This document shows positions 2,934-41,977 of a stretch of 64,000 nt of DNA, one piece after another; the first letter of the stretch is position 1; every line of letters starts with the position of its first letter. The notes under the pieces are model-generated. The model saw nothing but the letters and a program-made list of their open reading frames with translations. It was not told the origin of the DNA and ran no database searches. The DNA comes from a virus, in IMG/VR virus record IMGVR_UViG_3300044710_000137, positions 20,546 through 84,545 of that record; one strand, 5' to 3'. The position numbers were made by a program, and so were the translations under genes.

Positions 2934-3048
2934 GACGGCGGGCGGGAGTCGAACCCGCGCTGGCCGCGAAGGAGCTTCCGGCTGCCCCCGCACGGCCTTG
3001 ACCTTGGTTCGTAGCCAAGCGCTCTGAAATCCACTGAGCTACCGCCGC
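2934..3048 (-). tRNA. tRNA-Arg (ACG) with a 44-nt variable region
   Basis: Read leftward, the acceptor 5' strand GCGGCGG (3042-3048) pairs with CCGCCGT (2935-2941). The D-arm has GCTC/GAGC; the anticodon stem CTTGG/CCAAG carries the loop CTACGAA, giving anticodon ACG. The T-arm is perfect (GCGGG TTCGACT CCCGC, 2942-2958). The region between anticodon stem and T-stem (2959-3002) is 44 nt instead of about 5 for tRNA-Arg. It can fold as a long arm (GGCCG/CGGCC outer stem, GAAG/CTTC inner stem). No CCA is encoded. The 5' end coincides with the expected start of the promoter 3057-3086. Confidence 0.65.
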
Positions 3049-20750: not shown

Positions 20751-21320
20751 GTGATCCTGGAGTTTCCGACCCCCGACCCCCGATCCCCGACCCCGGCAGC
20801 GGGCCGGCCGCTGCCCTGGTATGCCCTGCGCGTCAAAGCCCTCCACGAATTCCACGTCGAGCGCGAGTTGTGCCGGTACGGTATCGAACCCTACCTGCCG
20901 ACACGTAAAAGGAAACACTGGCGCAACACCGAAGTGGACGTACCCCTGATCCCTGGCTACGTCTTCGCGCGCGCGGAAGCTTGTGATATATATGCCACAC
21001 TGCGTTGGACCAACTGGCTCACCAATATCTTGGGAGACCGGCATGGCCCTACCGAAATCCCCGCCGATCAAATCGAAACGCTCCGCCTGATGGTCGCCAA
21101 TTCGAAAATCGAAGTAATCCCGCTGGCCGATATCTGGAAGGGCGGGGAAGAGGTCGAGGTCGTGAGCGGCCCGCTGCAGGGCGCCAAGGGGCGCGTGGCC
21201 AGAGTCAAGAACAAGACGCAGCTCGTCATCTTCATCGAGATGCTGGGATCCGCGATCTGCACGGAACTGGACGCCGCCAGCGTGCGCGTCATTCCCGTGG
21301 ATCTACCGCTCGCGGCGTAG
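20751..21320 (+). CDS. Phage NusG/RfaH-like transcription factor
   Basis: After a low-complexity N-terminus (FPTPDPRSPTPAAGRP) the NGN domain is clear: WYALRVKALHEFHVERELCR (residues 23-42) and EVDVPLIPGYVFAR (62-75). The C-terminal KOW domain reads KGGEEVEVVSGPLQGAKGRV. NusG-family proteins bind RNA polymerase and change pausing and termination; specialised paralogues act as antiterminators. Being just ahead of the virion genes, it may allow their transcription through the many hairpin repeats (inference). GTG start one base after the preceding stop. Confidence 0.85.
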   Translation: MILEFPTPDPRSPTPAAGRPLPWYALRVKALHEFHVERELCRYGIEPYLPTRKRKHWRNTEVDVPLIPGYVFARAEACDIYATLRWTNWLTNILGDRHGPTEIPADQIETLRLMVANSKIEVIPLADIWKGGEEVEVVSGPLQGAKGRVARVKNKTQLVIFIEMLGSAICTELDAASVRVIPVDLPLAA

Positions 21321-23208: not shown

Positions 23209-23333
23209 GATTACCGGCACATCCGGTAAAGGCGCTCCTTACAGTAAGGAATCCAGCGCCGGGCACAGGGCTCCAACAACAACGGTCCACTCCTACCGTT
23301 GGGAGTCCTGTCGCCTTCCAATAATTCTCACTT

Positions 23334-23960
23334 GTGAAAGACAAAACTCCACCGACGGACACAACAAAAGAGCAGCTCGACGAGTCCTTGATAAACCCCG
23401 CTCTCATGGCCCGCATCCAGGCTATGGGATCTCCCATCGTTCCAGGACCGGCCCAAATAGAATTGGACAAGCGCGCATCGAAGAAACAGCGCATGCTGAT
23501 AGCCTTCGTGGTGACCGCGGGAAACGTCACGAGGGCAGCTAAAGCCGCCGGCATCGACCGCGACACCCACTACGCCTGGCTCAAGGACGATTCCGAATAC
23601 GCCGCGTCGTATCGTGATCGTGTACCCAACGCCGCCGGCGTCCTCGAGGACGAAGCCCGCAGACGGGCAGTCGAAGGTACACTCAAGGGCGTATACCACA
23701 AAGGCACGCTCGTAGACATGGAAGTGGAGTACTCGGATCGGCTCCTGATCCAGCTTCTGAAAGCCCACCACCCAGCGCATAAGCCCACCCTGACCATCGA
23801 CGGCCGGGGTAAGAACGGCGCCATCGCGATAGAACAAACCACCGCCGAAGACCTCGCCAAGCTGCCGGAAGAAACACTCCTGGAGCAAATCAAAGTGGCC
23901 CGCGAAACCCTCGAATGGCTAAAAGCGAGCACCCATGCAACAATCGAGCGGGCTCCCTAA
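23334..23960 (+). CDS. Small terminase subunit
   Basis: The 208-residue protein has a helix-turn-helix segment (TAGNVTRAAKAAGIDRDTHY; AWLKDDSEYAASYRDR) followed by LEDEARRRAVEGTLKGVY and VEYSDRLLIQLLKAHHP, a pattern typical of phage TerS proteins. TerS recognises the packaging site and loads TerL. GTG start at 23334 (a TTG two bases earlier is out of frame). It overlaps the TerL ATPase gene by 46 bases. Confidence 0.75.
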   Translation: MKDKTPPTDTTKEQLDESLINPALMARIQAMGSPIVPGPAQIELDKRASKKQRMLIAFVVTAGNVTRAAKAAGIDRDTHYAWLKDDSEYAASYRDRVPNAAGVLEDEARRRAVEGTLKGVYHKGTLVDMEVEYSDRLLIQLLKAHHPAHKPTLTIDGRGKNGAIAIEQTTAEDLAKLPEETLLEQIKVARETLEWLKASTHATIERAP

Positions 23961-24697
23961 AGGAGCTCTTGGAACTCAGGGCGGAATTGGAAGCTCAACT
24001 CGAGAAGCGCAATACCACCATCCGCGAGATCCGGACCAATAGGATTCAAGACCAGTTTCCTTTCACCGGTCCGTTCCGCCGCGAGCTCTACCCCAAGCAC
24101 ATGGAGTTCTTCGCCGCGGGCGCGGAACACACGGAGCGCTGCTTTATGGCGGGAAACCGCGTGGGCAAGACCCGGGCGGGCGCCTGCGAAGCGACGTACC
24201 ACCTCACGGGAAGCTACCCCGATTGGTGGGTGGGGAAGCGCTTCGATCATCCTGTCGAGGGCTGGGCGGCCGGCTCTACAAACCAAACGGTACGGGATAT
24301 CATTCAGGCTGAATTGCTGGGCAAACTGGCGCCGGACAAGGAATCGCGGCCCGAGGATCCCATCGGGCTCGGTACCGGCATGATCCCGGCTGATGCGATC
24401 CGCGCCATCAACCGGCGATCCGGCGGCGTCAAGGACTCGATCGAATCGGCGTATATCCGGCATGTCTCCGGAGGGACGTCGCTTCTCGGATTCAAAACTT
24501 ACGACCAGGGGCGGCGTAGCTTCGAGGGCACCGGCAAGCATTTCGTATGGGTGGACGAGGAATGCCCGTTCGACGTCTATATCGAAGCGCTGACGCGTAC
24601 GATGACCACGAAGGGGATCATCTACCTGACGTTCACGCCGTTGAGGGGAATGTCAGAAGTGGTCCTGCACTTTCTTCCCAGCACGACGCTGGATTGA
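23915..24697 (+). CDS. terL: Terminase large subunit, ATPase half (split gene)
   Basis: The 260-residue protein contains the packaging ATPase: Walker A GNRVGKT (residues 80-86), Walker B VWVDEE (211-216) and coupling motif LTFTPLRG (238-245). It ends at MSEVVLHFLPSTTLD, just where the nuclease domain would begin in an undivided TerL. The missing nuclease half is at 31370-32158, 6.7 kb downstream. No frameshift or slippery site is seen at the end: the TGA is in the same frame and no continuation exists. The two halves would have to work as separate chains. Confidence 0.85.
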   Translation: MAKSEHPCNNRAGSLKELLELRAELEAQLEKRNTTIREIRTNRIQDQFPFTGPFRRELYPKHMEFFAAGAEHTERCFMAGNRVGKTRAGACEATYHLTGSYPDWWVGKRFDHPVEGWAAGSTNQTVRDIIQAELLGKLAPDKESRPEDPIGLGTGMIPADAIRAINRRSGGVKDSIESAYIRHVSGGTSLLGFKTYDQGRRSFEGTGKHFVWVDEECPFDVYIEALTRTMTTKGIIYLTFTPLRGMSEVVLHFLPSTTLD

Positions 24698-24703
24698 AAA
24701 ACT

Positions 24704-25141
24704 ATGAGCGTGCCGCACATTTTCACCCAGCGATTCACGGGATCGGTCGTTGTTTGCTACTCGGTCTCGCATACTGAGCTCGACTTCGCGCGGGACATAC
24801 CAGCGCTGCTTTTGAATGTTTTCGATCTGCTGGATGCTCTTACCAGACATTTTATCTATCCACCGCCGACGCGCGAGCAAAGGAATGCGTATTACGACGC
24901 GGTAATGAATCAACGGCCGTGTCATCCACCGCTAAAGGCTCCCTGGCCGGATCGCTCCGAACAAATCCTTCCGGAGCCCATTTGGACGAACATCCACGCC
25001 GAGGACTACGAAACCATATTCGAGCGCTGCTACGGTGGAACGCTGGTACGACCGCCTGTTGAACCCGGCTTAGGCACGACCAGCACCACCGGCGGATCCA
25101 CGGGCAGCACCGCGATCGGCTTACCCACACGCTGCCCATAG
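24704..25141 (+). CDS. Hypothetical protein in the terminase split, 145 aa
   Basis: Begins 6 bases after the TerL stop. It has TELDFARDIPALLLNVFDLL and YPPPTREQRNAYYDAVMNQR, then EPIWTNIHAEDYETIFERCY. The last ~35 residues overlap the opposite-strand LuxR-like gene. Unrecognised. Confidence 0.45.
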   Translation: MSVPHIFTQRFTGSVVVCYSVSHTELDFARDIPALLLNVFDLLDALTRHFIYPPPTREQRNAYYDAVMNQRPCHPPLKAPWPDRSEQILPEPIWTNIHAEDYETIFERCYGGTLVRPPVEPGLGTTSTTGGSTGSTAIGLPTRCP

Positions 25142-25434
25142 CGGACGCCCCAACAAAAGGGCGCACCGCATTTGCAGTCATCCGGATGCAGGCCCGGGGA
25201 GACTGCGAAGCCGGCAAGGCACTCCGGGTGCGTCAAGATAAAGCGCACCAGCTCCACGATGGAAGTGAGCCGCAACGGTCCCGCCACGTGCGCTATGTGA
25301 GTCTTTAGGGTCTCCGGCGCGATCTGCAGCCGCTCTGCAATTTCCTTACGCGGTACTCCTAAAACCAGCAGGTACGCTATTTCCTGTTCTCTTTGCGACA
25401 GCGAAACCTGGTGGATTAACGTATCGATCTTCAC
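25030..25434 (-). CDS. LuxR-type HTH protein 1
   Basis: N-terminal LuxR/GerE HTH: VSLSQREQEIAYLLVLGVPR, then KEIAERLQIAPETLKTHIAH (residues 10-48). The C-terminal part has CKCGAPFCWG and a Pro-rich tail. There is no autoinducer or receiver domain. It is the only leftward gene at this end of the insertion and stands divergent from LuxR-type gene 2. Confidence 0.7.
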   Translation of the reverse strand: MKIDTLIHQVSLSQREQEIAYLLVLGVPRKEIAERLQIAPETLKTHIAHVAGPLRLTSIVELVRFILTHPECLAGFAVSPGLHPDDCKCGAPFCWGVRYGQRVGKPIAVLPVDPPVVLVVPKPGSTGGRTSVPP

Positions 25435-25555
25435 AAGTGAGTGGCTATCGTCCCCCCGTCAGGGGATGGTCCGCGATGGCCTTTACCGGCGGTATCCTAC
25501 CCCGATTATAGGACTTCCGCGCACGAATCAAATTCTGGGATCATCGGTACGCCAC

Positions 25556-25855
25556 ATGGAAAAACCCACGTTGACGAGCCTTCCCCCACGGCAGTTGGCG
25601 ATCGCGCGCCTGGTGCATCAGGGTCTGAGCAACGAGCAGATTGGGATTGATCTGCAGATCCAGCGTTGCACGGTCACCACCCAGCTGCACAGGATCTACG
25701 AGACGCTGGGTTTGGTCTGCCGGCAATATCCGAGGATGCGGTTGGCTCTCATCATCCAGGAACACGAAAATGCGACGGCTAAAAACTCTGATCTTCAACT
25801 GCCTGCTGCTGCTTTGACTGGTGGCGGCATGAGCATCCCGATGGAGCGAGTGTGA
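25556..25855 (+). CDS. LuxR-type HTH protein 2
   Basis: Start set at 25556 (MEKPTLTSLPPRQLAIARLV). LuxR HTH: VHQGLSNEQIGIDLQIQRCT, then VTTQLHRIYETLGL. No sensor domain; 99 residues. It shares the fold, not close sequence, with its neighbours at 25030 and 26353. Confidence 0.7.
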   Translation: MEKPTLTSLPPRQLAIARLVHQGLSNEQIGIDLQIQRCTVTTQLHRIYETLGLVCRQYPRMRLALIIQEHENATAKNSDLQLPAAALTGGGMSIPMERV

Positions 25856-25859
25856 CCGC

Positions 25860-26348
25860 TTGAGGGAGACAATTTCGTTTTTGGCTAATCTGGCGCTCTG
25901 CAAGCTGCAGAACGACATTGGCGGCCACCTCGTATTAGCGGAGTTTCCCGATCCGCCGGCGCCCCCGCGGTACGACCTCAGTCCACTCGGCCGGTATCTG
26001 GGCCAGTGCATGATAACCACGGAGCTCAAGGCTTTGTGGCAACTGCCGGCGAGACGCGAGAACCTGGAGTCCTCCTGCAGGACCGCGCTGTCGGATATAG
26101 TGCGGGACCTCCGCTCGATCACCGAGGCGGACCCCGGCTGTCCCGAAGAAGGGTGGGACGACAAACCGAACTTGCCTCAGATGCAAATCGTCTTCGCCCG
26201 ACCGGCGATGACGGGCGAAGTGGAGCAGGCTATCTGTTCGGACCGCCAGGCAGGCATCGCGCTGCGCGCCACTCGCATGAATGAAGACACCATCGCCATA
26301 GCCGTGAATTTCGGCGTGCGACGGCTTCTCCAATGCCGATTCGAGTAG
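25860..26348 (+). CDS. Hypothetical protein between LuxR genes, 162 aa
   Basis: TTG start. It contains NLALCKLQNDIGGHLVLAEF and LSDIVRDLRSITEADPGCPE, then a beta-rich C-terminus (DTIAIAVNFGVRRLLQC). Sandwiched between two LuxR-type genes, it may be their sensor or partner, but that is only context. No family recognised. Confidence 0.5.
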   Translation: MRETISFLANLALCKLQNDIGGHLVLAEFPDPPAPPRYDLSPLGRYLGQCMITTELKALWQLPARRENLESSCRTALSDIVRDLRSITEADPGCPEEGWDDKPNLPQMQIVFARPAMTGEVEQAICSDRQAGIALRATRMNEDTIAIAVNFGVRRLLQCRFE

Positions 26349-26352
26349 AACC

Positions 26353-26775
26353 ATGCAATACCTGACCACGCGCCAGCTTGCGGTTGCCGAATGCCTCGGG
26401 CGCGGTTTACGCAATAAGGAAGTGGCTAGTGAGCTAGGCTTGACCGAAGGCACGGTGAAGGTCTACATCTCGTACATCTTCACTAAACTGCAGATCGATT
26501 CGCGGCTGAAACTCGGCCTATTATTTAACGCCGGCGAATTAGGAGTCTGGCCGGCATCCGAACCGAAGCCGAAGCGGGCATACGCGACCCGCGCGCAAGT
26601 GGCCATCACAGCGAATGAAACAGGCGCACTTCGGCCGTTGCGGCTTACTGTTCGCGGTCCGTTGACGGAAGTCGATAAAAAGTGGGATCGCATCTTCGAC
26701 GAGAAGTTTGCGGACCCAGCTTACTACGTCCAACCACCTACGGTATCCGTCGGCTCGACCCTAGGCCGCGCATAA
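26353..26775 (+). CDS. LuxR-type HTH protein 3
   Basis: Starts MQYLTTRQLAVAECLGRGLR, then NKEVASELGLTEGTVKVYIS and YIFTKLQI: a complete LuxR/GerE HTH (residues 4-45) without a sensor domain. The basic linker KPKRAYATRAQ and a C-terminal unit (LTEVDKKWDRIFDEKFADP) follow. Third such gene within 1.8 kb. Confidence 0.75.
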   Translation: MQYLTTRQLAVAECLGRGLRNKEVASELGLTEGTVKVYISYIFTKLQIDSRLKLGLLFNAGELGVWPASEPKPKRAYATRAQVAITANETGALRPLRLTVRGPLTEVDKKWDRIFDEKFADPAYYVQPPTVSVGSTLGRA

Positions 26776-26841
26776 TACGTCGGAGCCCGAGGAGACGGAA
26801 CCCTGCGGTTCCTTCCCCTCGAACCCCTTCTTCCCCTATAA

Positions 26842-26873
26842 CCCAACACCGAGCACCCAGCACCCTCAAAGGA
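26842..26873 (+). repeat. Low-complexity repeat family E, copy 2
   Basis: CCCAACACCGAGCACCCAGC and CACCCTC before AAAGGATTTCCTC-ATG at 26881. Confidence 0.7.
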
Positions 26874-26880
26874 TTTCCTC

Positions 26881-27231
26881 ATGTCCAACGCAGTCCGCGG
26901 CCGCAAGAAAACCGGCCTCAAACCCGTGCCGAAAGGCAAGATGACCCACATGCACGTGCGCCGCATGGATAACGGAGGCTTCACCGTCGATAGCGACCAC
27001 GAGCTGCCGGAGAAGAAAAGCATGACCAGCAAGAAGGCCATGGGCAGCGCCATGGGTTTCGGGCCGTCCACGGAGTCGCATTCCGCGAGCTTCACGGGCC
27101 CCGACGATGCCCTGGCGCACGTGGGCCAGTTGATGGCGTCCGGACCGCCCAGCCCCGAGGCTCCCCCAGCTCCGGCCGGCGGCGCGCCCGCGCCTGGCGC
27201 GACCGACAGCACCATGCCGGAAGGCGAGTAA
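26881..27231 (+). CDS. Hypothetical protein, 116 aa
   Basis: Basic N-terminus (RGRKKTGLKPVPKGKMTHM), short beta unit (HVRRMDNGGFTVDSDHEL) and a Pro/Ala/Gly-rich tail. AAAGGATTTCCTC precedes the ATG. Phages often encode such proteins near the portal or terminase. Function unknown. Confidence 0.5.
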   Translation: MSNAVRGRKKTGLKPVPKGKMTHMHVRRMDNGGFTVDSDHELPEKKSMTSKKAMGSAMGFGPSTESHSASFTGPDDALAHVGQLMASGPPSPEAPPAPAGGAPAPGATDSTMPEGE

Positions 27232-27235
27232 AACG

Positions 27236-27481
27236 GTGAGCCCCGAAGCCAACGAGATCGTCGCGGCGCTTCGTGCGGCCGGGCAGCGGGCACGCCAGGA
27301 TGTCACCACTATCCCGGCGTATCGGATCACTCCGGACCGCTTGCGCTCGATGCGGCAGCAGTATGAAGTCGCGGAAGTATTGCTGGAAGACGATACCGAA
27401 GCCTTTCTTATTACAGCGTGGGACGTGCAGCGCGCCAGACCGCTCGCGCGGATCTTCGTGCTGAAGCCTGAAAATGCCTGA
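27236..27481 (+). CDS. Hypothetical protein, 81 aa
   Basis: GTG start. It has EANEIVAALRAAGQRARQDV and a C-terminal sheet (FLITAWDVQRARPLARIFVL). Overlaps the next start by 8 bases. Unrecognised. Confidence 0.5.
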   Translation: MSPEANEIVAALRAAGQRARQDVTTIPAYRITPDRLRSMRQQYEVAEVLLEDDTEAFLITAWDVQRARPLARIFVLKPENA

Positions 27482-27923
27482 AACTATACCAGCCACCAGC
27501 CACCAGCCACCAGCCACCGCCTCACTGGCGAAGGCCGTGGCCGACCACATCGACGAACGCCTGGAGGGTCAGCCCGCGCGCTTCAGCGACAAGCCGCTGC
27601 CCGGGCGGAAGATCCGGCAGATCTATCGGCTGGAGAAGATGGGCTGGCCCGCGGCCCCGCTCGACGCCGAGTCCGCCGCCTTCGCGCTGAAGGTAGCCGA
27701 CGACCTCGCCGGGCAACTACTCACCGCGATTAATCGCAACCCCGGCTGTGAATTGGTTTCGTGGGCGGGAGAGATCCCGCGCAGTATCGCGGAAGCGGAC
27801 TTTCACAACGGCAAGACCACCTCCGTGCGCGTCTTGGGCAATCACGATATTCACGAGAACTGCTTTCTGGTGCGCTTCGACGTGATCTACCGGATGGTGA
27901 AACTGCCTCCGAAGAAGGTATAG
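27474..27923 (+). CDS. Hypothetical protein with family-D-encoded N-terminus
   Basis: Residues 6-15 (ATSHQPPATA) are translated from a family-D tract. The rest looks real: FSDKPLPGRKIRQIYRLEKM, then GCELVSWAGEIPRSIAEADF and VRVLGNHDIHENCFLVRF. No family recognised. Confidence 0.5.
   Translation: MPETIPATSHQPPATASLAKAVADHIDERLEGQPARFSDKPLPGRKIRQIYRLEKMGWPAAPLDAESAAFALKVADDLAGQLLTAINRNPGCELVSWAGEIPRSIAEADFHNGKTTSVRVLGNHDIHENCFLVRFDVIYRMVKLPPKKV
27489..27519 (-). repeat. Low-complexity repeat family D, copy 2 (translated)
   Basis: CCAGCCACCAGCCACCAGCC, read as coding sequence in gene 27474-27923. Confidence 0.8.
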
Positions 27924-27925
27924 AA

Positions 27926-28096
27926 ATGGCCATTAAAATCAAGCCCAGCCATAAGGGCATGCTTCACGCCGAACTTGGAATCGCCTCGGATAAACCGATC
28001 CCCCTTTCCCGCATCGCCGGCGCTATGAAGAACGCCGGTCCCAAGGAAAAGAAGCGCCTCGTCTTCGCGGAGAACGCACGCAAATGGAAGCACTAA
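27926..28096 (+). CDS. Small conserved phage protein, 56 aa
   Basis: Reads MAIKIKPSHKGMLHAELGIA, then IPLSRIAGAMKNAGPKEKKR and LVFAENARKWKH. The pattern 'IKPSHKG-LH', 'I-A-K--A' and a final 'FA-NARKW' is seen in many phages next to packaging genes. Function unknown to me. Possibly binds DNA (basic). Confidence 0.65.
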   Translation: MAIKIKPSHKGMLHAELGIASDKPIPLSRIAGAMKNAGPKEKKRLVFAENARKWKH

Positions 28097-28410
28097 CGGC
28101 GAATGGATTTACAGTGCCACTGACTGGCGCTGCGGGCGGCGTCGCGGGCGCTAACGGCAGTGGCGGCTGCACCTGCGGCTTGACGACGAACATCTCATGC
28201 CCAGTCCACGGCATCCGCTACGACTCTTGGACATACACCCAACAAGTTCCATACTCGACCGAGAAGTGGGGTTTTTGTCCCTCCGACGGGCACAAGCTCG
28301 ATACGAACTGGAAGTATTGTCCGTCCTGCGGGAGGGCTATAGGCACGATGCAAACCACTTGGCCGCAGATCGTCCTCTACAACGGGACGCACAACCAAGG
28401 CGCGGATTAG
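28084..28410 (+). CDS. Zinc-ribbon protein, 108 aa
   Basis: Gly-rich N-terminus, CTCGLTTNISCPVHG, then FCPSDGHKLDTNWKYCPSCG near the C-terminus, a classical zinc ribbon. Overlaps the previous gene end by 13 bases. Function unknown. Confidence 0.55.
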   Translation: MEALTANGFTVPLTGAAGGVAGANGSGGCTCGLTTNISCPVHGIRYDSWTYTQQVPYSTEKWGFCPSDGHKLDTNWKYCPSCGRAIGTMQTTWPQIVLYNGTHNQGAD

Positions 28411-28441
28411 GCTCCGCACCCAACATCACAAAAAAGGAAGA

Positions 28442-28798
28442 ATGACGAAACAACAGGCAACGAAAGAACTGGGCGCGCAGACGCATCGCGTGGCCTATCT
28501 GGAGCAATTACTCGAGGAGGCTTTCGCGGACCGCGAGAAGTTGAGCGACGGCGTGGAGTCTTACAGCCGCCGCGCGGCCTACGCCGAGTCGTGCTTTAAG
28601 AAAGCTGAATGGCAGAATGGGGCACTCAGGGAGCAGGTAAACCAATTGAACGCCCAGAATCAGCAGCTCGCCAAGGACAACCTCCAGATGAAGAACAACC
28701 TGGACGTGTTCCGCAACCGCTTCGTCTCGCGCCAGATGGACATGAAGAGCGAAGCGCTCTTCTGGAACATCGACATCCAGTCCCTAATCAAGAGCTAG
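28442..28798 (+). CDS. Coiled-coil protein, 118 aa
   Basis: Nearly entirely helical, with heptads at residues 15-95 (VAYLEQLLEEAFADREKLSD; LREQVNQLNAQNQQLAKDNL). AAAAGGAAG precedes the ATG. No other domain. Function unknown. Confidence 0.55.
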   Translation: MTKQQATKELGAQTHRVAYLEQLLEEAFADREKLSDGVESYSRRAAYAESCFKKAEWQNGALREQVNQLNAQNQQLAKDNLQMKNNLDVFRNRFVSRQMDMKSEALFWNIDIQSLIKS

Positions 28799-29001
28799 GG
28801 CGCGGTCTTCTCCGCGGTCTTCTCCGCTGGCTTCTCCTCCGCGATTTCCTTGATTTCCACACACAAAGGCGTGACTGCGGCCATAAATTCTCTTGGTTTC
28901 GCCTTGGCGACCCGAATCCAATGCTCCGCGCCAATCAACCCGTTCGCCTGGTCAAAGTTGCGGAATCCATGCTCGGCTCCCTTCTGTTGCTCTTCCGTCA
29001 T
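28795..29001 (-). CDS. Hypothetical protein, 68 aa
   Basis: Leftward, convergent with the coiled-coil gene. It reads MTEEQQKGAEHGFRNFDQAN then IRVAKAKPREFMAAVTPLC, with an E/K/P-rich tail (AEEKPAEKTAEKTAP). The repetitive tail and lack of family make it uncertain. Confidence 0.45.
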   Translation of the reverse strand: MTEEQQKGAEHGFRNFDQANGLIGAEHWIRVAKAKPREFMAAVTPLCVEIKEIAEEKPAEKTAEKTAP

Positions 29002-29067
29002 TGAATTACCTCGCTTTGAACGGGCGCGGCGGGTGTGGTCTCACCGCGCCCATTGGTTAGGGCTCAG

Positions 29068-29361
29068 TTAAACGCCGGTACCGGCGCCGCCGGCGCGCTG
29101 CGTTTGCGGCCAGACTTCGTTGACCAGATCCACCAGGATGCTGGGATTCTCGCTCTGGTTCACGTAGATCGACGCGGCCATGACTGGCGTAAGGTCCAGC
29201 GTGCCGACGCAGAAGTCGATCAAGTTGCCCGTGGGTGGGGTGGTGCGGAGCACTTTACGGAAGGCGTCGATGTTCGAGCCGATCCGTCCATACACGGATT
29301 GCGCTGCATCCGTTGTCAAATGCAGGGTTCCAGTGCAGTACTGGATGAATTTTTCTTTCAA
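29068..29361 (-). CDS. Protein with two copies of a ~40-aa unit
   Basis: The unit FIQYCTGTLHLTTDAAQSVY (residues 5-24) is repeated as LIDFCVGTLDLTPVMAASIY (47-66), each followed by a short helical end. The internal duplication supports a true coding sequence. Function unknown. Confidence 0.55.
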   Translation of the reverse strand: MKEKFIQYCTGTLHLTTDAAQSVYGRIGSNIDAFRKVLRTTPPTGNLIDFCVGTLDLTPVMAASIYVNQSENPSILVDLVNEVWPQTQRAGGAGTGV

Positions 29362-29400
29362 GTTGATTTGGTACCTCCTGACTTGAACTATAGCGCTTCC

Positions 29401-29455
29401 AAAGATTTATATGTTGATGCCGCGCCGGTCAGGCCTGCCCGGCGCTGGTAGAACC
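29401..29455 (-). repeat. Junction repeat family A, copy 18
   Basis: Stem GCGCCGG/CCGGCGC, flanked by TTGATGCC and TGGTAGAACC, 6 bases before the ATG at 29462. Confidence 0.85.
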
Positions 29456-29461
29456 GTCCCA

Positions 29462-29773
29462 ATGAAAATTCTGTCAGGGTCCGCTACAGTATGTGGAAAT
29501 AGGGTATACCGCGATAGCGGCGATCTCTTCGCCCTGGACTTGCCCATCCGCCTCTCGATCAATAACGACGCCTGCACACTACCGCCAAAGACCACCACGG
29601 CTTCGGAGCATCGCATCGTCTGGGAGGACCACGGGGTTGTCACGGTGTCCAGGATCCCCCCGGCCGGCGCGCCGATTTACTGGTGCCAGATGCGTCCCTC
29701 CAGATGGCGCGATATCGCCTCGGGCCTGGTCCGCGCGGTCTTCTCCGGACTAGGCGCTTTTCAGGGAAATTGA
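29462..29773 (+). CDS. Hypothetical protein, 103 aa
   Basis: Starts MKILSGSATVCGNRVYRDSG and is mostly beta (LFALDLPIRLSINNDACTL; RIVWEDHGVVTVSRI). The start lies directly after a family-A repeat. No family recognised. Confidence 0.5.
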   Translation: MKILSGSATVCGNRVYRDSGDLFALDLPIRLSINNDACTLPPKTTTASEHRIVWEDHGVVTVSRIPPAGAPIYWCQMRPSRWRDIASGLVRAVFSGLGAFQGN

Positions 29774-29793
29774 CGCCCGCCACCCGAATGCTG

Positions 29794-29847
29794 GAACCAG
29801 CGCGGGACACGGCTTGTGGCCCGCGCGGCATCAACATATAAGCCTTT
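29794..29847 (+). repeat. Junction repeat family A, copy 19
   Basis: ACCA then stem GCGCGGG/CCCGCGC, then GGCATCAACATATAAGCC, just before the ATG at 29852. Confidence 0.85.
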
Positions 29848-29851
29848 GCAA

Positions 29852-29992
29852 ATGCCATTCGTCAGCCAAGCACAAGAGAAGAAATTCCGAGAACTCGTAG
29901 CAACCAAGCAGATGAAGCAATCAGTCTACGACGAATGGTTGAAAGCCACCCCCGACCTGAAGAAGCTTCCCATCCGTTTAAAGAAGAAGTAA
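29852..29992 (+). CDS. Small conserved phage protein, 46 aa
   Basis: Reads MPFVSQAQEKKFRELVATKQ, then MKQSVYDEWLKATPDLKKLP. The 'MPFVS-AQ--KF--L' start and basic end resemble short proteins found near packaging genes of many phages. Function unknown to me. Confidence 0.6.
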   Translation: MPFVSQAQEKKFRELVATKQMKQSVYDEWLKATPDLKKLPIRLKKK

Positions 29993-29995
29993 TCA

Positions 29996-30154
29996 ATGCC
30001 ATTCCAGCAAATCCTATGGAACTCGGAGACGTTCACGTGGACAAGATATCCAGCTTTGCTCGCCGAACTCGGGTTTCGAACCAACGCGGCCGGATTTCTG
30101 TTAGCCCAGGAAGCAAAAACACATCGGGACAGGATTTACAAAATCCTGGAGTAG
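29996..30154 (+). CDS. Hypothetical small protein, 52 aa
   Basis: Starts 3 bases after the previous stop: MPFQQILWNSETFTWTRYPA, then LLAELGFRTNAAGFLLAQEA. Plausible helical protein. Too short to classify. Confidence 0.45.
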   Translation: MPFQQILWNSETFTWTRYPALLAELGFRTNAAGFLLAQEAKTHRDRIYKILE

Positions 30155-30159
30155 CCGGC

Positions 30160-30321
30160 ATGACCGTTTCACTGCCGCGCATCCCAGATCCGGCAGCCGA
30201 AGCGGACGTGCTGTGGGAAGGCTTGGAATTCCTTCTGACGCATAAATGCTGCGGATTCACTTGCTCCGAGTGCGACCGCTTGAATGCCGTGCGGAGTATT
30301 TTACTCGCCCGGTGGACGTGA
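30160..30321 (+). CDS. Hypothetical small Cys-containing protein, 53 aa
   Basis: MTVSLPRIPDPAAEADVLWE then CCGFTCSECDRLNAVRSILL: a helix followed by a CC-x3-C-x2-C cluster. Its end overlaps the leftward gene 30301-30549. Confidence 0.45.
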   Translation: MTVSLPRIPDPAAEADVLWEGLEFLLTHKCCGFTCSECDRLNAVRSILLARWT

Positions 30322-30549
30322 GCCGCTCGCTCGCTGTTTTGACCACTGCATCAGGTATCGAATCGGCGAATCAATAGAGCGCCGGCTGACGTCCGGATGC
30401 GGATCGCTGGCGACCCAATTAACGAATAGCCTCTGAAGGGCGGCATGCTGGATCTCAGGCTCGCGGCGCAGTAAATGACGCCGGGCAAGAAACGCGGAAA
30501 GAAACGCGGAAGCAAAGATGGCGGCGATACAGGGCCACGCGTGGACCAC
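30301..30549 (-). CDS. Small membrane protein, 82 aa
   Basis: GTG start 2 bases after the upstream TAA, with GGAG upstream. N-terminal membrane segment (WPCIAAIFASAFLSAFLARR), then a basic region and helix (HAALQRLFVNWVASD). Function unknown. Confidence 0.45.
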   Translation of the reverse strand: MVHAWPCIAAIFASAFLSAFLARRHLLRREPEIQHAALQRLFVNWVASDPHPDVSRRSIDSPIRYLMQWSKQRASGSRPPGE

Positions 30550-30551
30550 CT

Positions 30552-30794
30552 TTACGGTGCTCCAGACGCCTTCGGCATCGCATCGCCCCACACCCACCCG
30601 CTGATTTTCGATAGGGCGAAGAACCCGACGATCTCACCGGCGAGACCACGCAGTTCAAAGTGAACGTCCGTACCGTCGCCGCTGGCTTTCTCCTCGACCG
30701 ATACAGCCTGTAGCTTCACAATCCCCGCGGCGCTGAAGACGTAGAAGTCGCGCATCTTCGGCTTCGGACTCGCCACACTTGCCGCTTTAGGCAT
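30552..30794 (-). CDS. Hypothetical protein, 80 aa
   Basis: Start at 30794 (MPKAASVASPKPKMRDFYVF). Beta-rich: FYVFSAAGIVKLQAVSVEEK then DVHFELRGLAGEIVGFFALS. Divergent from the structural-like gene 30814-31200 with 19 bases between. Unrecognised. Confidence 0.5.
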   Translation of the reverse strand: MPKAASVASPKPKMRDFYVFSAAGIVKLQAVSVEEKASGDGTDVHFELRGLAGEIVGFFALSKISGWVWGDAMPKASGAP

Positions 30795-30813
30795 ACCCCC
30801 AGGATACCGCTTT

Positions 30814-31200
30814 ATGTCCGCACTCCCCATTTCCGCCCAAGCCGTGCTCGCTTATAACAACGGCGCCGGCATCAACATCCAGCTCCCCGAGACATCCAGC
30901 GCCACAGCCGTAGCGATCGCGGGCGTGAACTTTAACGGCAGCTCCATGGTTGTGCCCACGACTTCCGGCGGTACCGCAATCCCTCTCGGCGCATTACAGA
31001 ACCTCGGGCTTGCCTGCTTCCAGAATCTCGACCCCACCAATTATTGCGAAATCCTGACCGCTGTCAGCGGCACCGCCATCATAAAGCTGAACGCCGGCGA
31101 TCCGCCGTTCCTATTCCGCTTCGGGCCTGGAATTACCGCGCCTGCGCTTATTGCACATACGGCCACGACGCTCGTCCAGTGGCTCATTTTGGAAAATTGA
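30814..31200 (+). CDS. Structural-like protein, 128 aa
   Basis: Begins MSALPISAQAVLAYNNGAGI and is beta-rich with small residues (SATAVAIAGVNFNGSSMVVP; TAVSGTAIIKLNAGDPPFLF), as in phage decoration or minor virion proteins. No signal peptide. Overlaps the next gene by one base (TGATG). Confidence 0.5.
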   Translation: MSALPISAQAVLAYNNGAGINIQLPETSSATAVAIAGVNFNGSSMVVPTTSGGTAIPLGALQNLGLACFQNLDPTNYCEILTAVSGTAIIKLNAGDPPFLFRFGPGITAPALIAHTATTLVQWLILEN

Positions 31201-31370
31201 TGACGGACTTCCGCGCCTGGCGCGAAGACCTCGACCATCGCGAGTACGAATATCTGCTGGCGCGCGAAGAACCCCCGCGGGTCGATCCGCAGCGGCGTTT
31301 CGGGCTGACCGCGGACGATGGCGCGTTTCTCGGCGCGATTGAGAAGGCTTTCCGGGACGAGGTGCGGTAG
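31200..31370 (+). CDS. Small acidic/basic protein before TerL nuclease, 56 aa
   Basis: MTDFRAWREDLDHREYEYLL then EEPPRVDPQRRFGLTADDGA. Its stop overlaps the GTG of the TerL nuclease half (TAGTG, 31368-31372), so translation of the nuclease is coupled to it. No family recognised. Confidence 0.55.
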   Translation: MTDFRAWREDLDHREYEYLLAREEPPRVDPQRRFGLTADDGAFLGAIEKAFRDEVR

Positions 31371-32158
31371 TGCCGTTTTTGTGCACCTGCACTTGGGAAG
31401 AGGTGCCCCATCTCGGTGGAAAAGAGAAAACCGAACTCCTCCTCACCTATCCTCCCCACCAGCGCGATGCCCGAACCAAAGGGGTACCGCAGTTAGGCGC
31501 GGGCGCGGTCTATCCGATGCTCGAAGAGGAAATCCTCTACGATTATTTCGACATTCCACCATACTGGCCGCGAATGTTTGCGTTAGACGTAGGTTGGAAT
31601 CGTTCGGCAGCACTGTGGGGCGCGCTGGACCGGGACAGCGACCGGCTGTTCATCTATAGTGAACACTACCAGGGCAGGCTGACGCCACACGAGCACGCGC
31701 GCATCATCAAGGCGCGTGGGTCCTGGATACCCGGCGTAATCGATCCAGCCTCGCGCGGATCGAGCCAAGCGGACGGCGAAAAGATTGTCGAACTCTACCG
31801 CGCGGAAGGGTTGGATCTCACCTACGCGGACAATAACGTCGAAGCCGGCATCTATGACGTTTGGCAGCGGCTACAGAACAACCGGCTGAAGATTTGCAAG
31901 ACGCTCATCAATCTGCGCCAGGAATACCGGCTCTACCGGCGCAACCCGAAAGACGGGCATGTCGTCAAGCCGAGATTGCCCCAGGAATTGCCTGAAGGGC
32001 GAACGGCCGCGGAGTACGGCGATCATTTGCTCGACTGCCTCCGCTATATGTGCCGTGGATTGCAAGTTATGAAACAGGCGCCCGTGGTGCCGAAGCGCGG
32101 TCCCGGATCGCAAGCCGAATGGAAGCAGCCAACCGGGCCCCTCGGTTGGATGGCGTAA
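31370..32158 (+). CDS. terL: Terminase large subunit, nuclease half (split gene)
   Basis: The 262 residues match only the C-terminal half of a large terminase: the pre-nuclease helix WEEVPHL, PHQRDARTKGVPQLGAGAVY, then an RNase-H-like nuclease with acidic residues D73 (FALDVGW), D125 (GVIDPASRG) and D218/D222 (GDHLLDCLRY). The ATPase half is 6.7 kb upstream (23915-24697). The GTG start is coupled to the preceding stop. All catalytic residues are kept, so both halves are probably functional together. Confidence 0.85.
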   Translation: MPFLCTCTWEEVPHLGGKEKTELLLTYPPHQRDARTKGVPQLGAGAVYPMLEEEILYDYFDIPPYWPRMFALDVGWNRSAALWGALDRDSDRLFIYSEHYQGRLTPHEHARIIKARGSWIPGVIDPASRGSSQADGEKIVELYRAEGLDLTYADNNVEAGIYDVWQRLQNNRLKICKTLINLRQEYRLYRRNPKDGHVVKPRLPQELPEGRTAAEYGDHLLDCLRYMCRGLQVMKQAPVVPKRGPGSQAEWKQPTGPLGWMA

Positions 32159-32162
32159 ACGC

Positions 32163-32465
32163 CTACCGCTTTACTGCCGTATTCAGGGTGAACACCATGC
32201 GCGCAGTACCCCCGCTCGGCCGCCATCCCAAGCTTTGAAGCCTTTCGAGGCTGATGCGGCGGCGCTCCATGGCCTCTGCTATCTCGGCTTCCAATGCACG
32301 GCGGTTATGGATCAAGCGCACTTTGAGCCATACATTGACGCCCACCAGCACGGATTCCAAGACAAACCACCAAACCTTCCGGTAATATCCTGTCGGAATG
32401 CCGACCCCCAGAACAATCGCGACCAGCAAAAGCACGATCCACCACTCGCGCAAGAAACGCCGCAT
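32163..32465 (-). CDS. Two-pass membrane protein, 100 aa
   Basis: Two hydrophobic segments (WWIVLLLVAIVLGVGIPTGY, residues 8-27; WWFVLESVLVGVNVWLKVRL, ~32-51) then a charged helical tail (EAEIAEAMERRRISLERLQS). It is leftward within rightward genes, 4 bases from the TerL nuclease end. A holin-like role is possible but unsupported. Confidence 0.5.
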   Translation of the reverse strand: MRRFLREWWIVLLLVAIVLGVGIPTGYYRKVWWFVLESVLVGVNVWLKVRLIHNRRALEAEIAEAMERRRISLERLQSLGWRPSGGTARMVFTLNTAVKR

Positions 32466-35395: not shown

Positions 35396-37777
35396 TTGAC
35401 CAAAAAGCAGCAGCCGTCCTTCTCGATGCCCGCGCCGACGCCAAAAGGCCGAAGGCCGCGCAACCTCCGGACGACCGTTTCAAGCGGCCCCGAGCCGAAC
35501 AAGGATTTGACGGCGGTATCGGCCATCGATCCCGTTCCCGGTATTGACGGCGATCCCGAGAAGATCCGGCACGGCGAAATACTGATGCGCGCCAAAGCGC
35601 GATTTCGCAAGGCCAACGATGCCGACCAAAACGATAGGGCCGAAGCCTTATTGGATCTCAGGTTCTACGTGGGCCAGCAGTGGGACGACGGCGTATACAA
35701 CGAAAGATTTACGTCTGGCCGGCCGGCCGAGACGTTCAACCGCATCCAGCCCATCTGCCGCATGGTGGCGAACGAGTTTCGCCAACAGCGTCCCTCCGTC
35801 CAGGTGCGGCCCGTGGGATCGGGCGCCGACATTAGTGTTGCCGAACTATACGAGGGAATCGTCCGGCACATCGAAACGCAATCCGACGCGGAAACGGCGT
35901 ACGACTTCGCGGACGAAATGATGGTGGTCTGCGGGCGGGGCTCGTTCCGCTTCGTGTGCGAGTGGGTGGACGAACTGGACGAGACGGGCCACCCGCTGTG
36001 GATCCAGGAAATCAAAGTTCAGAAAATCCTGAATCCCTTCGCCGTCTATTGGGATCCCTCCGCGGTCCAGCCCGACAAATCGGACGCGCTCTACTGCTTC
36101 ATCACCGAGGACGTGGATCGCGACGAGTTCAAGGCGCAGTACCCGAATGCCTCGTTAACCTCGCTCTCCAATTTCCGTGGAACGGGCGACGAGCAGCTCT
36201 GGTTCCCGGAAGGCAATCGCATCCGGGTAGCCGAGTACTTCGAGATAACGAGTACGGAACGCAACGCCTGCATCATGCAGGATGGCACCGTGCGCTGGGA
36301 AGACGAACTCGCCGGTGAGAAACCGTTAGCCACGCGCGCCGTCAGCACGCAAAAGTGCGACTGGTACAAAATCTCGGGCGTTGAAGTCGTCGAGGAAGCC
36401 GTTATCCCCGGCGAATTCATCCCCGTGGTGACCATGCAGGGGCACGAGTACATCGTGCAGGACAAGCGCATGTCTATGGGCCTCGCCAGAACTATGCGGG
36501 GCGCGCAGCGCATGTACAACGTAGCCAGGAATGGGGCTATCGAGTGCGTCCTATTGGCTCCCAGGGCTCCCTGGATCGTGTGGGAAGGCCAGACCGAGAA
36601 CCACGAGCAGGAATGGAAACAGGCCAACATCCGCAACATGCCGTACCTGACCGTGCGGCCCGTCGCCGGTCCCGATGGCACGCTGTTACCCGCGCCAACC
36701 CGGAACACGTGGGAAGCGCCCATCCAGTCCATGACGCAGCTCATGGGCCAGGCGGATAACGATGTCAAGGCCACCAGTGGGATTTATGACGCAAGTCTGG
36801 GTAATAAAGATTCGCAGGACCGCAGCGGAAAAGCGATCCAGGCTCTCCAGACGCAAGGCGCCACCGCGACCTTCAGCTACTCGGACAACGCCGCACGGGG
36901 AATAAGGCAAGCGGGCGCCATTATGACGTCCATGATTCCGCACATCTACGACACGGCGCGGGTTCAGCGCATAGTCAAGCCGGACGGCTCGGCCGAGATG
37001 ATCCCGATCAACCAGCACTTCCAGTTGGTACCGGGCGAAGACGGACGCATTGAAAACAAACTGCTGGACGCCGCTATCCCCGGCATGTCCAAATTCCACG
37101 ACTTGACCATCGGCAAATACGATGTCGTGGTGGCGATGGGTCCTTCCTTCCAGACCAAGCGGCAGGAAGCATTTTCGTTATTGGTCGATCTCGCCAAGGC
37201 GTTCCCGCAAATTATGCAGGTTGCGGGCGACATCATCACCGCCAACTGGGACGCGCCGTTCGCGCAGGAATTGTCGAAGCGCCTCAAATTCCTGTTGCCT
37301 CCGGCCATTCAACAGGCCGAAGCGCAAACCGCCGGCCAGCAGGCTATCAGCCCCGCCGCCTTCGCCCAACAACAGCAGATTATCCAGGGGTTACAGGCAC
37401 AATTGCAACAACTGGTTCAGGTATTGCGCGAGAAGAAGATAGAGGCGGACGGCAAGACCAGGATCGCGCTGATGAACAATATCGCGGGCATCATCGAGGC
37501 GGAGGTCAAGGCCGGAAGCGTTTCGGCTGGCGGACTGGCCCAGATGAACATGGACGCCGTAGGGCGCATGGTGGATATGATGATGGCCTCCGCGCAAGCA
37601 GACCAGGCGGACGCCGCGGCTACGCAGGAGCAAACGCATCAGGCAGGATTGGCGCAAGCTCAACAGGGCCACGAAGCGGACCTCGCGGCTCAACAGCAAC
37701 AGCACGAGAAAGATTTAGCCGCTATGCCGCCGGCAGCCGCGCCCCAGGGTAGCGGTTCAATGCCTCTTGCCGCGTGA
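35396..37777 (+). CDS. Portal protein, P22-like
   Basis: The 793-residue protein shows the P22-type portal pattern: LDLRFYVGQQWDDGVYNERF (residues ~83-102), RMVANEFRQQRPSVQVRPVG, then YEGIVRHIETQSDAETAYDF and NPFAVYWDPSAVQPDKSDAL. The C-terminal ~130 residues are Gln/Ala-rich coiled coil, likely the barrel region. It forms the dodecameric DNA channel at one capsid vertex. TTG start at 35396 with no strong ribosome site; the next ATG would lose only ~10 residues. Confidence 0.85.
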   Translation: MTKKQQPSFSMPAPTPKGRRPRNLRTTVSSGPEPNKDLTAVSAIDPVPGIDGDPEKIRHGEILMRAKARFRKANDADQNDRAEALLDLRFYVGQQWDDGVYNERFTSGRPAETFNRIQPICRMVANEFRQQRPSVQVRPVGSGADISVAELYEGIVRHIETQSDAETAYDFADEMMVVCGRGSFRFVCEWVDELDETGHPLWIQEIKVQKILNPFAVYWDPSAVQPDKSDALYCFITEDVDRDEFKAQYPNASLTSLSNFRGTGDEQLWFPEGNRIRVAEYFEITSTERNACIMQDGTVRWEDELAGEKPLATRAVSTQKCDWYKISGVEVVEEAVIPGEFIPVVTMQGHEYIVQDKRMSMGLARTMRGAQRMYNVARNGAIECVLLAPRAPWIVWEGQTENHEQEWKQANIRNMPYLTVRPVAGPDGTLLPAPTRNTWEAPIQSMTQLMGQADNDVKATSGIYDASLGNKDSQDRSGKAIQALQTQGATATFSYSDNAARGIRQAGAIMTSMIPHIYDTARVQRIVKPDGSAEMIPINQHFQLVPGEDGRIENKLLDAAIPGMSKFHDLTIGKYDVVVAMGPSFQTKRQEAFSLLVDLAKAFPQIMQVAGDIITANWDAPFAQELSKRLKFLLPPAIQQAEAQTAGQQAISPAAFAQQQQIIQGLQAQLQQLVQVLREKKIEADGKTRIALMNNIAGIIEAEVKAGSVSAGGLAQMNMDAVGRMVDMMMASAQADQADAAATQEQTHQAGLAQAQQGHEADLAAQQQQHEKDLAAMPPAAAPQGSGSMPLAA

Positions 37778-39566: not shown

Positions 39567-40625
39567 ATGGAAATAGTCAGCACTACTGACAGCTACGAGC
39601 AATCAGCCGCAGCGCTCGCAGCTCACGGTTACGAGGCAGAGCCCAAACCGACCGCGGCGCCACCCTCCGCCGATTCCCCGGTTGAACAAGTAACACCCCC
39701 TACCGAGGAAATCAAAACCGATCCGGACCCGGACGCCGGACTTTTGGAACAGGTACAGCCGGGAGTAAAACCAGCTCCCAAGAAGAAGCAGAGCGCCCAG
39801 GAGCGCATCGACGAGATAACCGCCCAGCGTTATGAAGAACGCGGACGCTTACAGGCTGAAATCGACCGCCTGAAAGCCTCCATCGAGGGAAAGCCCGCGG
39901 ATAAGCCCATCCCGCCTCCCGTGGTGGAACCAATGAAGCCGGAACGGCCCAAGCGTCCCAAGCAGTCGGAATTCGACACCACTGAAGAATTCGAGACAGC
40001 CGATGGCGTTTACGACACCGCCATGGAGAAGTACGAAACGGACCTGGCCACCTACACCGAGGACCGCGCCGTAGCCAAATTCCAACAGCAGCAGGCCCAA
40101 GAAGCCTCCGTTGCCAGAGTTACGGCTATCCACGCCGCCGGGCTCGATAAATATTCGGACTACGAGGACGTCGTGCAGAAAAACGACGCCATCACCATCT
40201 CGACAGCCATGTTGGATGCTATCGGCGAGTACGAAAACGCCGAGGACTTCCTCCACTTCATCGGGACTCATCCCGCCGAAGCCGCCGAGTATGTCGCGGA
40301 TACCTTCACTCCAGGGACAACGATGTATAGCCCCCGTGAGGCGCGCGCCGCCGGCCGCATCGTGGCCAACCTCGCGGCGCAGTTCGCCGCCGCACCCGTC
40401 GCTCCCTTAGCTCCTCTTGCAGCTCCTGCAACCGATTCACCCGCCGCGCCCCCCGCGGTTCCTCCCGTCGCTGCACCTGTTCCAACCCGCAGAATAACCG
40501 CGGCACCCGCTCCCATAGCCCCGCTCCGCCCCTCCGCCGCAGCCGGTCAACCCGATCCCAAAAGGGAAATCGGCAAGAACGGCTGGACGGTCGCCAAAGA
40601 GCGCGAGCTGATGAAGCGCCGCTAA
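39567..40625 (+). CDS. Scaffolding-type protein
   Basis: The 352-residue protein is acidic, Pro/Ala-rich and helical (QSAQERIDEITAQRYEERGR; RLQAEIDRLKASIEGKPADK), with a long disordered C-terminal part (APVAPLAPLAAPATDSPAAP) and a basic end (KREIGKNGWTVAKERELMKR). Composition, size and place directly before the coat gene are those of P22-like scaffold proteins, which guide procapsid assembly. Called from context more than from sequence motifs. Confidence 0.65.
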   Translation: MEIVSTTDSYEQSAAALAAHGYEAEPKPTAAPPSADSPVEQVTPPTEEIKTDPDPDAGLLEQVQPGVKPAPKKKQSAQERIDEITAQRYEERGRLQAEIDRLKASIEGKPADKPIPPPVVEPMKPERPKRPKQSEFDTTEEFETADGVYDTAMEKYETDLATYTEDRAVAKFQQQQAQEASVARVTAIHAAGLDKYSDYEDVVQKNDAITISTAMLDAIGEYENAEDFLHFIGTHPAEAAEYVADTFTPGTTMYSPREARAAGRIVANLAAQFAAAPVAPLAPLAAPATDSPAAPPAVPPVAAPVPTRRITAAPAPIAPLRPSAAAGQPDPKREIGKNGWTVAKERELMKRR

Positions 40626-40729: not shown

Positions 40730-41977
40730 ATGTTTCCTCCCAACCAAGAGCTGACGATCAGCATGATTACCAATCGTGCCTTGATCGTCCTCGAAAACGA
40801 CCTCAGTTTCTCAAACACCGTCGATAAGTCGTATAACGACTCGTTCGGCGTCGATGGCGCCAAAATCGGCGCAGTCATCAACATCCGCAAGCCGGCGCAG
40901 TACGTTGTGAACGTCGGACCGGCCATGCAGCCCCAGAGCTTCGTCGAGACCTATGTCCCGCTGACGCTCACCACGCAGGCGCAAGTCAGCGTGAACTTCA
41001 CCACCACGGAACTTCTGTTGAACGTCGACGAGTTCCAGGACCGCGTTCTGAAACCGGCTATCGCGGCGATCGCTAACAAGATCGACTCCGATGGAACGGC
41101 TCTCGCACAGCTCGTTCCCAACTTCGTCGGCATCCCCGGCGTGACGCCCAACCAGATCCTGACCTACCTTCTGGCAGGCGTGCAATTGGATAACAACAGC
41201 ACCCCGGACGATGGGGAGCGCTCCGTCACGGTTTATCCGCTGGCGCAAGCCACCATCGTAGACGCCTTGAAGGGCCTCTATAACCCCCAGAAAATGATTG
41301 GCGACCAAAACATCAAGGGCGCCATGGGCTCGGGGTTCATCGGCGAATGGTACAAGGACCAGAACGTTTGGACTCAAACCATCGGCGCGCTCGGCGGGAC
41401 TCCCGTCGTGAATCTCGGCGCCCAGACCGGCAGCTCCATCAACATCACCGGTTGCACCGCGAACATCGTCAATTGGCTGAACCAGGGCGACAAGGTGCAA
41501 TTCACGGGCGTTTATGCCGTGAACACGCAGTCCAAGGCCCAGATCAACACCCTCCAGGGCTTCACCCTAACGGCGCCGGCTTCGACCACCGCAGGCGGCA
41601 CGGCAGTCCTGCAAATCTCCCCGGCCATCGTGACCACGGGAGCTCAGCAGAACGTCTCCAATTCGCCCATCAACGGCGCGTCTGTTCTGCCTTACGGCCT
41701 CTCCACCACTTCGACGCCCACCGAAAGCACCATCGCCGGCGTCAACACCCCGCAGTCGATGCTCTATCACAAGGACGCCTTCACGGTGGCCTCGGTCGAT
41801 ATGTTCGTTCCCAAGAATGTCGAAATGGGAGCGCGGGCTTCGGACAAACAGGTCGGTTTCTCACTCCGCATTCTGAGAAATTACGACATCTATCAGGATG
41901 GTCTACCGTGCCGCGTGGACGTGCTCTACGGCTGGCAGGCGATCCGTCCGCAGACGGCCTGCATCATCACCGGCTAA
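40730..41977 (+). CDS. Major capsid (coat) protein, P22-like
   Basis: The 415-residue protein matches P22-type coat proteins: N-terminal MITNRALIVLENDLSFSNT, then NIRKPAQYVVNVGPAMQPQS and ETYVPLTLTTQAQVSVNFTT. The C-terminal segment contains QSMLYHKDAFTVASVDMFVP, ending QDGLPCRVDVLYGWQAIRP. HK97-fold with an inserted domain. TAAGGATTTCC lies before the ATG. Highest-expressed gene expected in the region. Confidence 0.9.
   Translation: MFPPNQELTISMITNRALIVLENDLSFSNTVDKSYNDSFGVDGAKIGAVINIRKPAQYVVNVGPAMQPQSFVETYVPLTLTTQAQVSVNFTTTELLLNVDEFQDRVLKPAIAAIANKIDSDGTALAQLVPNFVGIPGVTPNQILTYLLAGVQLDNNSTPDDGERSVTVYPLAQATIVDALKGLYNPQKMIGDQNIKGAMGSGFIGEWYKDQNVWTQTIGALGGTPVVNLGAQTGSSINITGCTANIVNWLNQGDKVQFTGVYAVNTQSKAQINTLQGFTLTAPASTTAGGTAVLQISPAIVTTGAQQNVSNSPINGASVLPYGLSTTSTPTESTIAGVNTPQSMLYHKDAFTVASVDMFVPKNVEMGARASDKQVGFSLRILRNYDIYQDGLPCRVDVLYGWQAIRPQTACIITG

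Follow-up and report, generated by a model that had tools for sequence, protein, structure and literature searches.

The window analysed here, a 64,000-nucleotide stretch of viral DNA, corresponds to bases 20546-84545 of the IMG/VR record IMGVR_UViG_3300044710_000137 (84,545 bp) and carries a gene for the terminase large subunit (TerL) that is divided into two open reading frames (ORFs), named here TerL-N and TerL-C. TerL is regarded as one chain and serves almost universally as a marker gene for tailed phages. The original prediction, made from the letters of the window, had placed both halves at exactly the coordinates that we retain, with whole genes between them. The locus is organised as follows:

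23334..23960, plus strand: terminase small subunit, TerS (PHROG 4044, E 5e-21), overlapping the start of TerL-N
23915..24697, plus strand: TerL-N, ATPase core with Walker A, Walker B and motif III (Terminase_6N, E 2.8e-18; PHROG 31467, E 3.9e-70)
24698..31369, both strands: spacer between the TerL halves, about 20 small ORFs (from the ORF list and composition)
31370..32158, plus strand: TerL-C, lid subdomain and RNase H-like nuclease (Terminase_6C, E 4.7e-5)

The TerL-N product of 260 amino acids (aa) matches positions 1-150 of the 215 positions of the Pfam model Terminase_6N and contains Walker A (GNRVGKT), Walker B (VWVDEE) and motif III (TFTP). Its AlphaFold2 model (predicted local distance difference test, pLDDT, of 91.6) is matched by Foldseek to the ATPase domain of P74-26 TerL (4ZNK) and to D6E TerL, and conserved motifs and fold thus both correspond to the ATPase core of a Terminase_6 TerL. 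The PHROG 31467 family to which it belongs has 261 positions, is ATPase-only and is annotated as of unknown function. The TerL-C product (262 aa) scores above the cut-off with Terminase_6C and retains D73, D125 and D218; its model (pLDDT 85.2) matches the P22 TerL nuclease 4DKW (template modelling score on target 0.84) and full-length D6E TerL, and the nuclease of a Terminase_6 TerL is thereby recognised from its catalytic Asp residues and its P22-like fold. The single polypeptide typical of this family is replaced by two ORFs lying about 6.67 kb apart.

A search of the whole 84,545-bp record with Terminase_6N returned two matches only, one to model positions 1-151, within the first ORF, and one to positions 158-213, where the second ORF begins. 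The last quarter of this "ATPase" model therefore belongs to TerL-C. Because only the two halves are matched, the record contains no further TerL by this search, and the second complete terL against which the original prediction had cautioned is missing from it.

Position of the break

The TerL-C profile aligns to residues 209-416 of D6E TerL and starts within the lid, to which Y213, M216 and R224 of D6E belong, the linker comprising residues 230-241. By this alignment, the cut is placed between the ATPase core and the lid, the first ORF being predicted to encode the ATPase core only and the second the lid together with the nuclease. The division into an ATPase half and a nuclease half with its catalytic Asp residues, as originally proposed, agrees with the motifs and with D73, D125 and D218, but its boundary has to be moved, since the lid sits in the second ORF. 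When TerL-C is modelled in isolation with AlphaFold2, its first residues are disordered; within a complex, they probably complete the ATPase core sheet by providing its last strand.

TerL-N stops 22 residues after the start of TFTP and TerL-C starts 8 residues before the Trp of TWEEVPHL. The sum of these inter-motif residues (30) is within the range of fused relatives (28-45), and therefore nothing is missing except the loop. Indeed, the closest fused homologue of TerL-N (63% identity), found in a Bryobacteraceae (Acidobacteria) prophage and named L101, reads TFTPLRGLSDVVLSFLPEGDLSKPAKFAVFCTWDEAPHL across the junction, where the window has TFTPLRGMSEVVLHFLPSTTLD-stop and then M-PFLCTCTWEEVPHL. 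As far as the aligned sequences tell, only the linker loop is absent between the two halves. The break falls in a surface loop that follows motif III and corresponds to the variable linker of fused relatives.

Both edges of the spacer are tightly packed. The TGA of TerL-N is followed after 6 nucleotides (nt) by the ATG of the next gene, and the GTG of TerL-C overlaps the previous stop codon (TAGTG), with GAGGTG just 5' of it; the coupling of the nuclease start to the preceding stop had been recognised correctly. The composition of the spacer is like that of the rest of the window (guanine-plus-cytosine content of 0.592; tetranucleotide distance of 0.122 versus 0.119 +/- 0.009), and no repeats flanking it were found.

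Recurrence of the break and content of the gaps

Scans with either half retrieved 245 loci with both halves, reduced to 185 relatives after de-replication at 93%. The gene is fused in 89 of them, L101 being the closest, which supplies the undivided homologue that the original prediction suggested looking for in related phages. In the remaining 96, it is broken at the same inter-motif loop, the ORFs being less than 150 bp apart in 47 cases (often overlapping, e.g., ATGA), 150-1000 bp apart in 34 and more than 1 kb apart in 15 (maximum 7.5 kb). The adjacent class (<150 bp) may include a few sequencing frameshifts, while the 49 cases with halves 150 bp or more apart are robust. The proportion of split forms (52%) is not an unbiased population frequency, because the relatives were retrieved by similarity to the window halves. 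The largest gaps are those of L005 (7478 bp), the window (6675 bp), L008 (5570 bp), L078 (5320 bp), L030 (3885 bp), L017 (3345 bp) and L011 (2081 bp). Split terminases had been considered rare, and interruption by a gene block unusual; neither view survives 96 same-site breaks among 185 relatives and blocks of 2.1-7.5 kb at that site in six other IMG/VR contigs.

The break is always found in one loop. In split relatives, the distance from the beginning of TFTP to the end of TerL-N is 22-35 residues, and that from the beginning of TerL-C to the conserved Trp is about 8-15. The new N-terminus of TerL-C comes in two or more forms, among them MS[RK]...W (9 aa) and MPxISxSKYLV..W (14 aa), which suggests separate origins. 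On the TerL tree reconstructed from these sequences, fused and split states alternate, with at least 13 changes on supported branches and 22 by parsimony, the direction of each being ambiguous.

Split forms are also found in prophages of cultured bacteria, including Sphingopyxis flava (gap of 1845 bp), Novosphingobium (1387 bp), Azospirillum agricola (1211 bp) and Chromohalobacter canadensis (1130 bp); further hosts are several Mesorhizobium as well as Halomonas, Litchfieldella and Kushneria. In MW202785, a complete circular 40-kb P22-like genome, each TerL half is matched once, in two separate coding sequences (CDS) that are 133 bp apart and each labelled "large terminase protein". PHROG 31467, as an ATPase-only family, and MW202785, with its two-CDS terminase, thus resemble the window, and their records carry no comment on a split. 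The remaining GenBank phages of this TerL family whose annotation was checked are fused, perhaps the reason why the split form has escaped notice. Five loci (L134, L150, L151, L171 and L172, from Sphingomonas, Mesorhizobium and others) contain the N half only; two queries found no C half elsewhere, the L171 genome yielding a 39-residue fragment only, and we treat these loci as fragments or decayed prophages.

Both halves appear to be well maintained. Among spaced pairs with an N-half dS below 0.5, the ratio of non-synonymous to synonymous substitution (dN/dS) is 0.02-0.19 for the N half and 0.01-0.19 for the C half, values that indicate strong purifying selection on both in close relatives. 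The distances of the N and C halves co-vary in spaced pairs (r 0.64; Mantel, 0/1000 permutations) as they do in fused proteins (r 0.66). The acidic residues of Walker B and D73 are invariant across the 185 relatives; 139 of them have an Asp aligned at D125. Of the other ATPase and nuclease positions examined, most show good conservation, and the window has these residues as well. In one group of loci (L029, L046, L060, L065, L105 and relatives), identity to reference members is ~60% for the ATPase parts and ~41% for the nuclease parts, a contrast that suggests a past exchange of halves of the motor at the linker.

The gaps differ in content. HNH or HNH_3/NUMOD4/AP2 genes, which are typical of homing endonucleases, fill those of L025, L033, L065, L187, L216 and L223, the matches in L025 and L033 being weak but of the same type, and L065 groups with the fused L105. 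The gaps of L005, L030 and L106 carry LamG, tail-fibre or minor-tail domains; other gaps hold unassigned genes. The following genes were characterised in the window spacer:

25030..25434, minus strand: small GerE/LuxR-type helix-turn-helix protein (PF00196, E 2.7e-12)
25466..25855, plus strand: small GerE/LuxR-type helix-turn-helix protein (PF00196, E 1.8e-6)
26353..26775, plus strand: small GerE/LuxR-type helix-turn-helix protein (PF00196, E 2.1e-13)
30814..31200, plus strand: ORF of 128 aa with coding-like base composition (G+C) at codon positions and no PHROG match

A stretch 45% identical to the product of 26353..26775 lies 5' of the fused TerL in L197. Among the window spacer genes scanned, which are a subset of its small ORFs, no homing endonuclease was matched. 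The proteins of the window spacer had no match in the other spacers, and a mobile element common to the spacers was rejected in view of the absence of genes shared with the window spacer and of a flanking repeat.

A probable two-chain packaging motor and its alternatives

We consider it quite probable that the locus encodes a genuine two-chain TerL, whose unspliced halves assemble non-covalently into the packaging motor and whose linker loop is a repeatedly invaded cargo site. TerL-N (ASCE ATPase core) and TerL-C (lid and RNase H-like nuclease) would be translated separately, without splicing, and would associate non-covalently, TerL-C giving the lid in trans. Insertion of a homing endonuclease at the linker loop would be a likely route to many of the splits. 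Once the break is tolerated, the gap could become a landing site for tail fibres, regulators and other cargo.

The closest precedents are nrdA of Aeromonas phage Aeh1 and gene 43 of T4-like phages, both of them split. The split NrdA and gp43 chains form active enzymes, and homing endonucleases made or accompany the splits (PMC2988022). Aeh1 nrdA (mobE insertion), gene 43 of phage 25/44RR and the T4 topoisomerase gene 39/60 have in common with terL a core phage enzyme made as two polypeptides, with a homing endonuclease in or near the gap. As in such genes in pieces, the break is conserved and the two TerL chains together make up the whole enzyme; a homing endonuclease is found in the gap of six relatives and not among the scanned genes of the window spacer. 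However, TerL is a different enzyme, its break recurs often, its gap can take in as much as 7.5 kb of unrelated genes, and its reassembly is a prediction. Compared with TerL of the P22/EBPR podovirus 1 type (Terminase_6N plus Terminase_6C), the window pair belongs to the same family, but the former is one continuous chain of 480-500 aa. Genes in pieces and spliced terL are already known; what is new is the genes-in-pieces form in TerL, a protein where a split was thought incompatible with function. We found no unspliced two-gene TerL in the open full-text literature, subscription journals being mostly outside this coverage.

Several observations weigh against a functional two-chain motor. All split pairs are known from sequence alone. 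The window TerL is on a long, poorly placed branch without close relative (none above ~63% identity was found in IMG/VR or GTDB genomes), and for this reason its pair is outside the dN/dS comparison. The congruence of N and C distances is lower in the adjacent-split class (r 0.33), where some halves may have been exchanged. HNH genes are present in 6 of the gaps examined only, that of the window not being among them. Finally, in T4 gp17, the separated ATPase and nuclease domains stay active, but DNA translocation is lost (PMC9958956). The natural cut differs from the T4 one in separating the core from the lid, and the maintenance of lid and nuclease in one chain may be why the split works.

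That the halves are instead exons, joined into one TerL by intron(s) at the RNA level or by a split intein at the protein level, is very unlikely. Group I intron- and intein-split terL genes are documented in Jug phages, Bastillevirinae, Campylobacter phage IBB_35 and cyanophage Mic1, which share with the window an interrupted terL and sometimes HNH endonucleases. These phages rejoin terL by RNA or protein splicing, whereas the window halves end in stop and start codons, without intron or intein. HNH genes, which are frequent in introns, do occur in some gaps; nevertheless, Rfam searches found no intron in the window at gathering level or in 23300-32200 at E<=1, and no group I or II intron at gathering level in 14 distinct other split loci. 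An intron-split terL was rejected on this absence of catalytic intron RNA between the halves in the window and the tested split loci. In L036, L041 and L068, the ORFs of the pair overlap, so there is no room for an intron. A true LAGLIDADG intein is present in one relative (L185:8309-10720), but at another site of a fused TerL, just before the SYDQ motif and upstream of Walker B. An intein-split terL was rejected from the ends of the halves: TerL-N ends 22 aa after TFTP begins in the window (22-35 residues from motif III in split relatives), TerL-C begins with a start codon 8 aa before the Trp, and neither half has the ~100 extra residues needed for a split intein. The earlier statement that no intein, intron or frameshift marks the edges is thus borne out by the negative Rfam searches, the stop and start codons and the accounted loop length.

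It is very improbable that the halves are no longer partners, with one of them vestigial, or with the C chain as a stand-alone nuclease or the N chain as a stand-alone ATPase outside packaging. Separated TerL domains retain their own activities in vitro and the N and C trees are partly incongruent, which would fit such a loss of partnership. Against it, the record has no other TerL, MW202785 has one match per half, and the C chain retains the lid, whose role is in the ATPase cycle. The two halves are also selected with equal strength, and they co-vary in spaced pairs to the same degree as in fused proteins.

A chimeric assembly or a decayed prophage, which would make the split an artefact, is very improbable: the source is a metagenomic contig known from assembly alone and without close relative, but the composition of the spacer equals that of the rest of the window, gene packing reaches its edge on both sides, catalytic residues are intact in both halves, the break recurs in independent assemblies, cultured isolates (prophages) and the circular MW202785, which makes the assembly error feared in the original prediction unlikely, and decay is disfavoured by intact TerS, portal, scaffold and coat genes, the last three being:

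35396..37777, plus strand: P22-like portal protein (PF16510, E 6.4e-155)
39567..40625, plus strand: head scaffolding protein (PHROG 8865, E 2.9e-10)
40730..41977, plus strand: P22-type coat protein (PF11651, E 7.3e-23; PHROG 283, E 8.4e-55)

Beyond the two-chain TerL of the window, we incline with modest confidence towards a widespread class of tailed phages with a heteromeric motor, in which the lid would couple in trans, the covalent link would be dispensable, the break would be a general cargo site of the late operon and the halves would perhaps be exchangeable. A recurrent two-chain TerL would challenge the T4-derived textbook view that DNA pumping needs both halves in one chain, and the natural cut between core and lid makes the need for a covalent link in force coupling directly testable. 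Besides, reconstitution of the motor could make use of subunits that are separate by nature. Such phages can be missed or mislabelled by marker-gene pipelines that expect TerL at full length and by labels such as the "unknown function" of PHROG 31467.

Other features of the window

A NusG/RfaH-like antiterminator gene (20751-21320; PF02357, E 7.5e-15) is located upstream of the late genes, and MW202785 has an RfaH-like gene at the same relative place.

The window also contains 17 dispersed 38-nt hairpins, found on both strands, with the organisation ACCAGC-variable stem-GCGGCATCAA, two copies being within the terL spacer. They lie at the following positions:

4405, 6688, 7294, 7397, 9346, 9827, 10092, 10385, 12089, 12297, 15474, 15664, 19467, 29414, 29796, 43585, 59330: 38-nt hairpin

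Their stems vary with pairing retained, compensatory changes being observed at 7 of 12 pairs, and a stricter pattern occurs 12 times versus 0.22 expected. Fifteen of the 17 precede a co-oriented ORF, at 3-73 nt from its start, and these hairpins are possibly a shared RNA leader or a cassette boundary. Two families of dispersed direct repeats, 67-87% identical to their reference copy, are also present, one of 95 nt (11441, 23117, 54044 and 55005) and one of 60 nt (2488, 32742, 38371, 43199 and 62216).

On the minus strand, positions 2934-3048 give an Rfam tRNA match over 115 nt (50.5 bits) that is absent from the ARAGORN output and is perhaps a tRNA with an insert or a long variable arm. Finally, a sulfotransferase-family match at 62432-63691, preceded by a weak glycosyltransferase-like match, is an unusual phage cargo.

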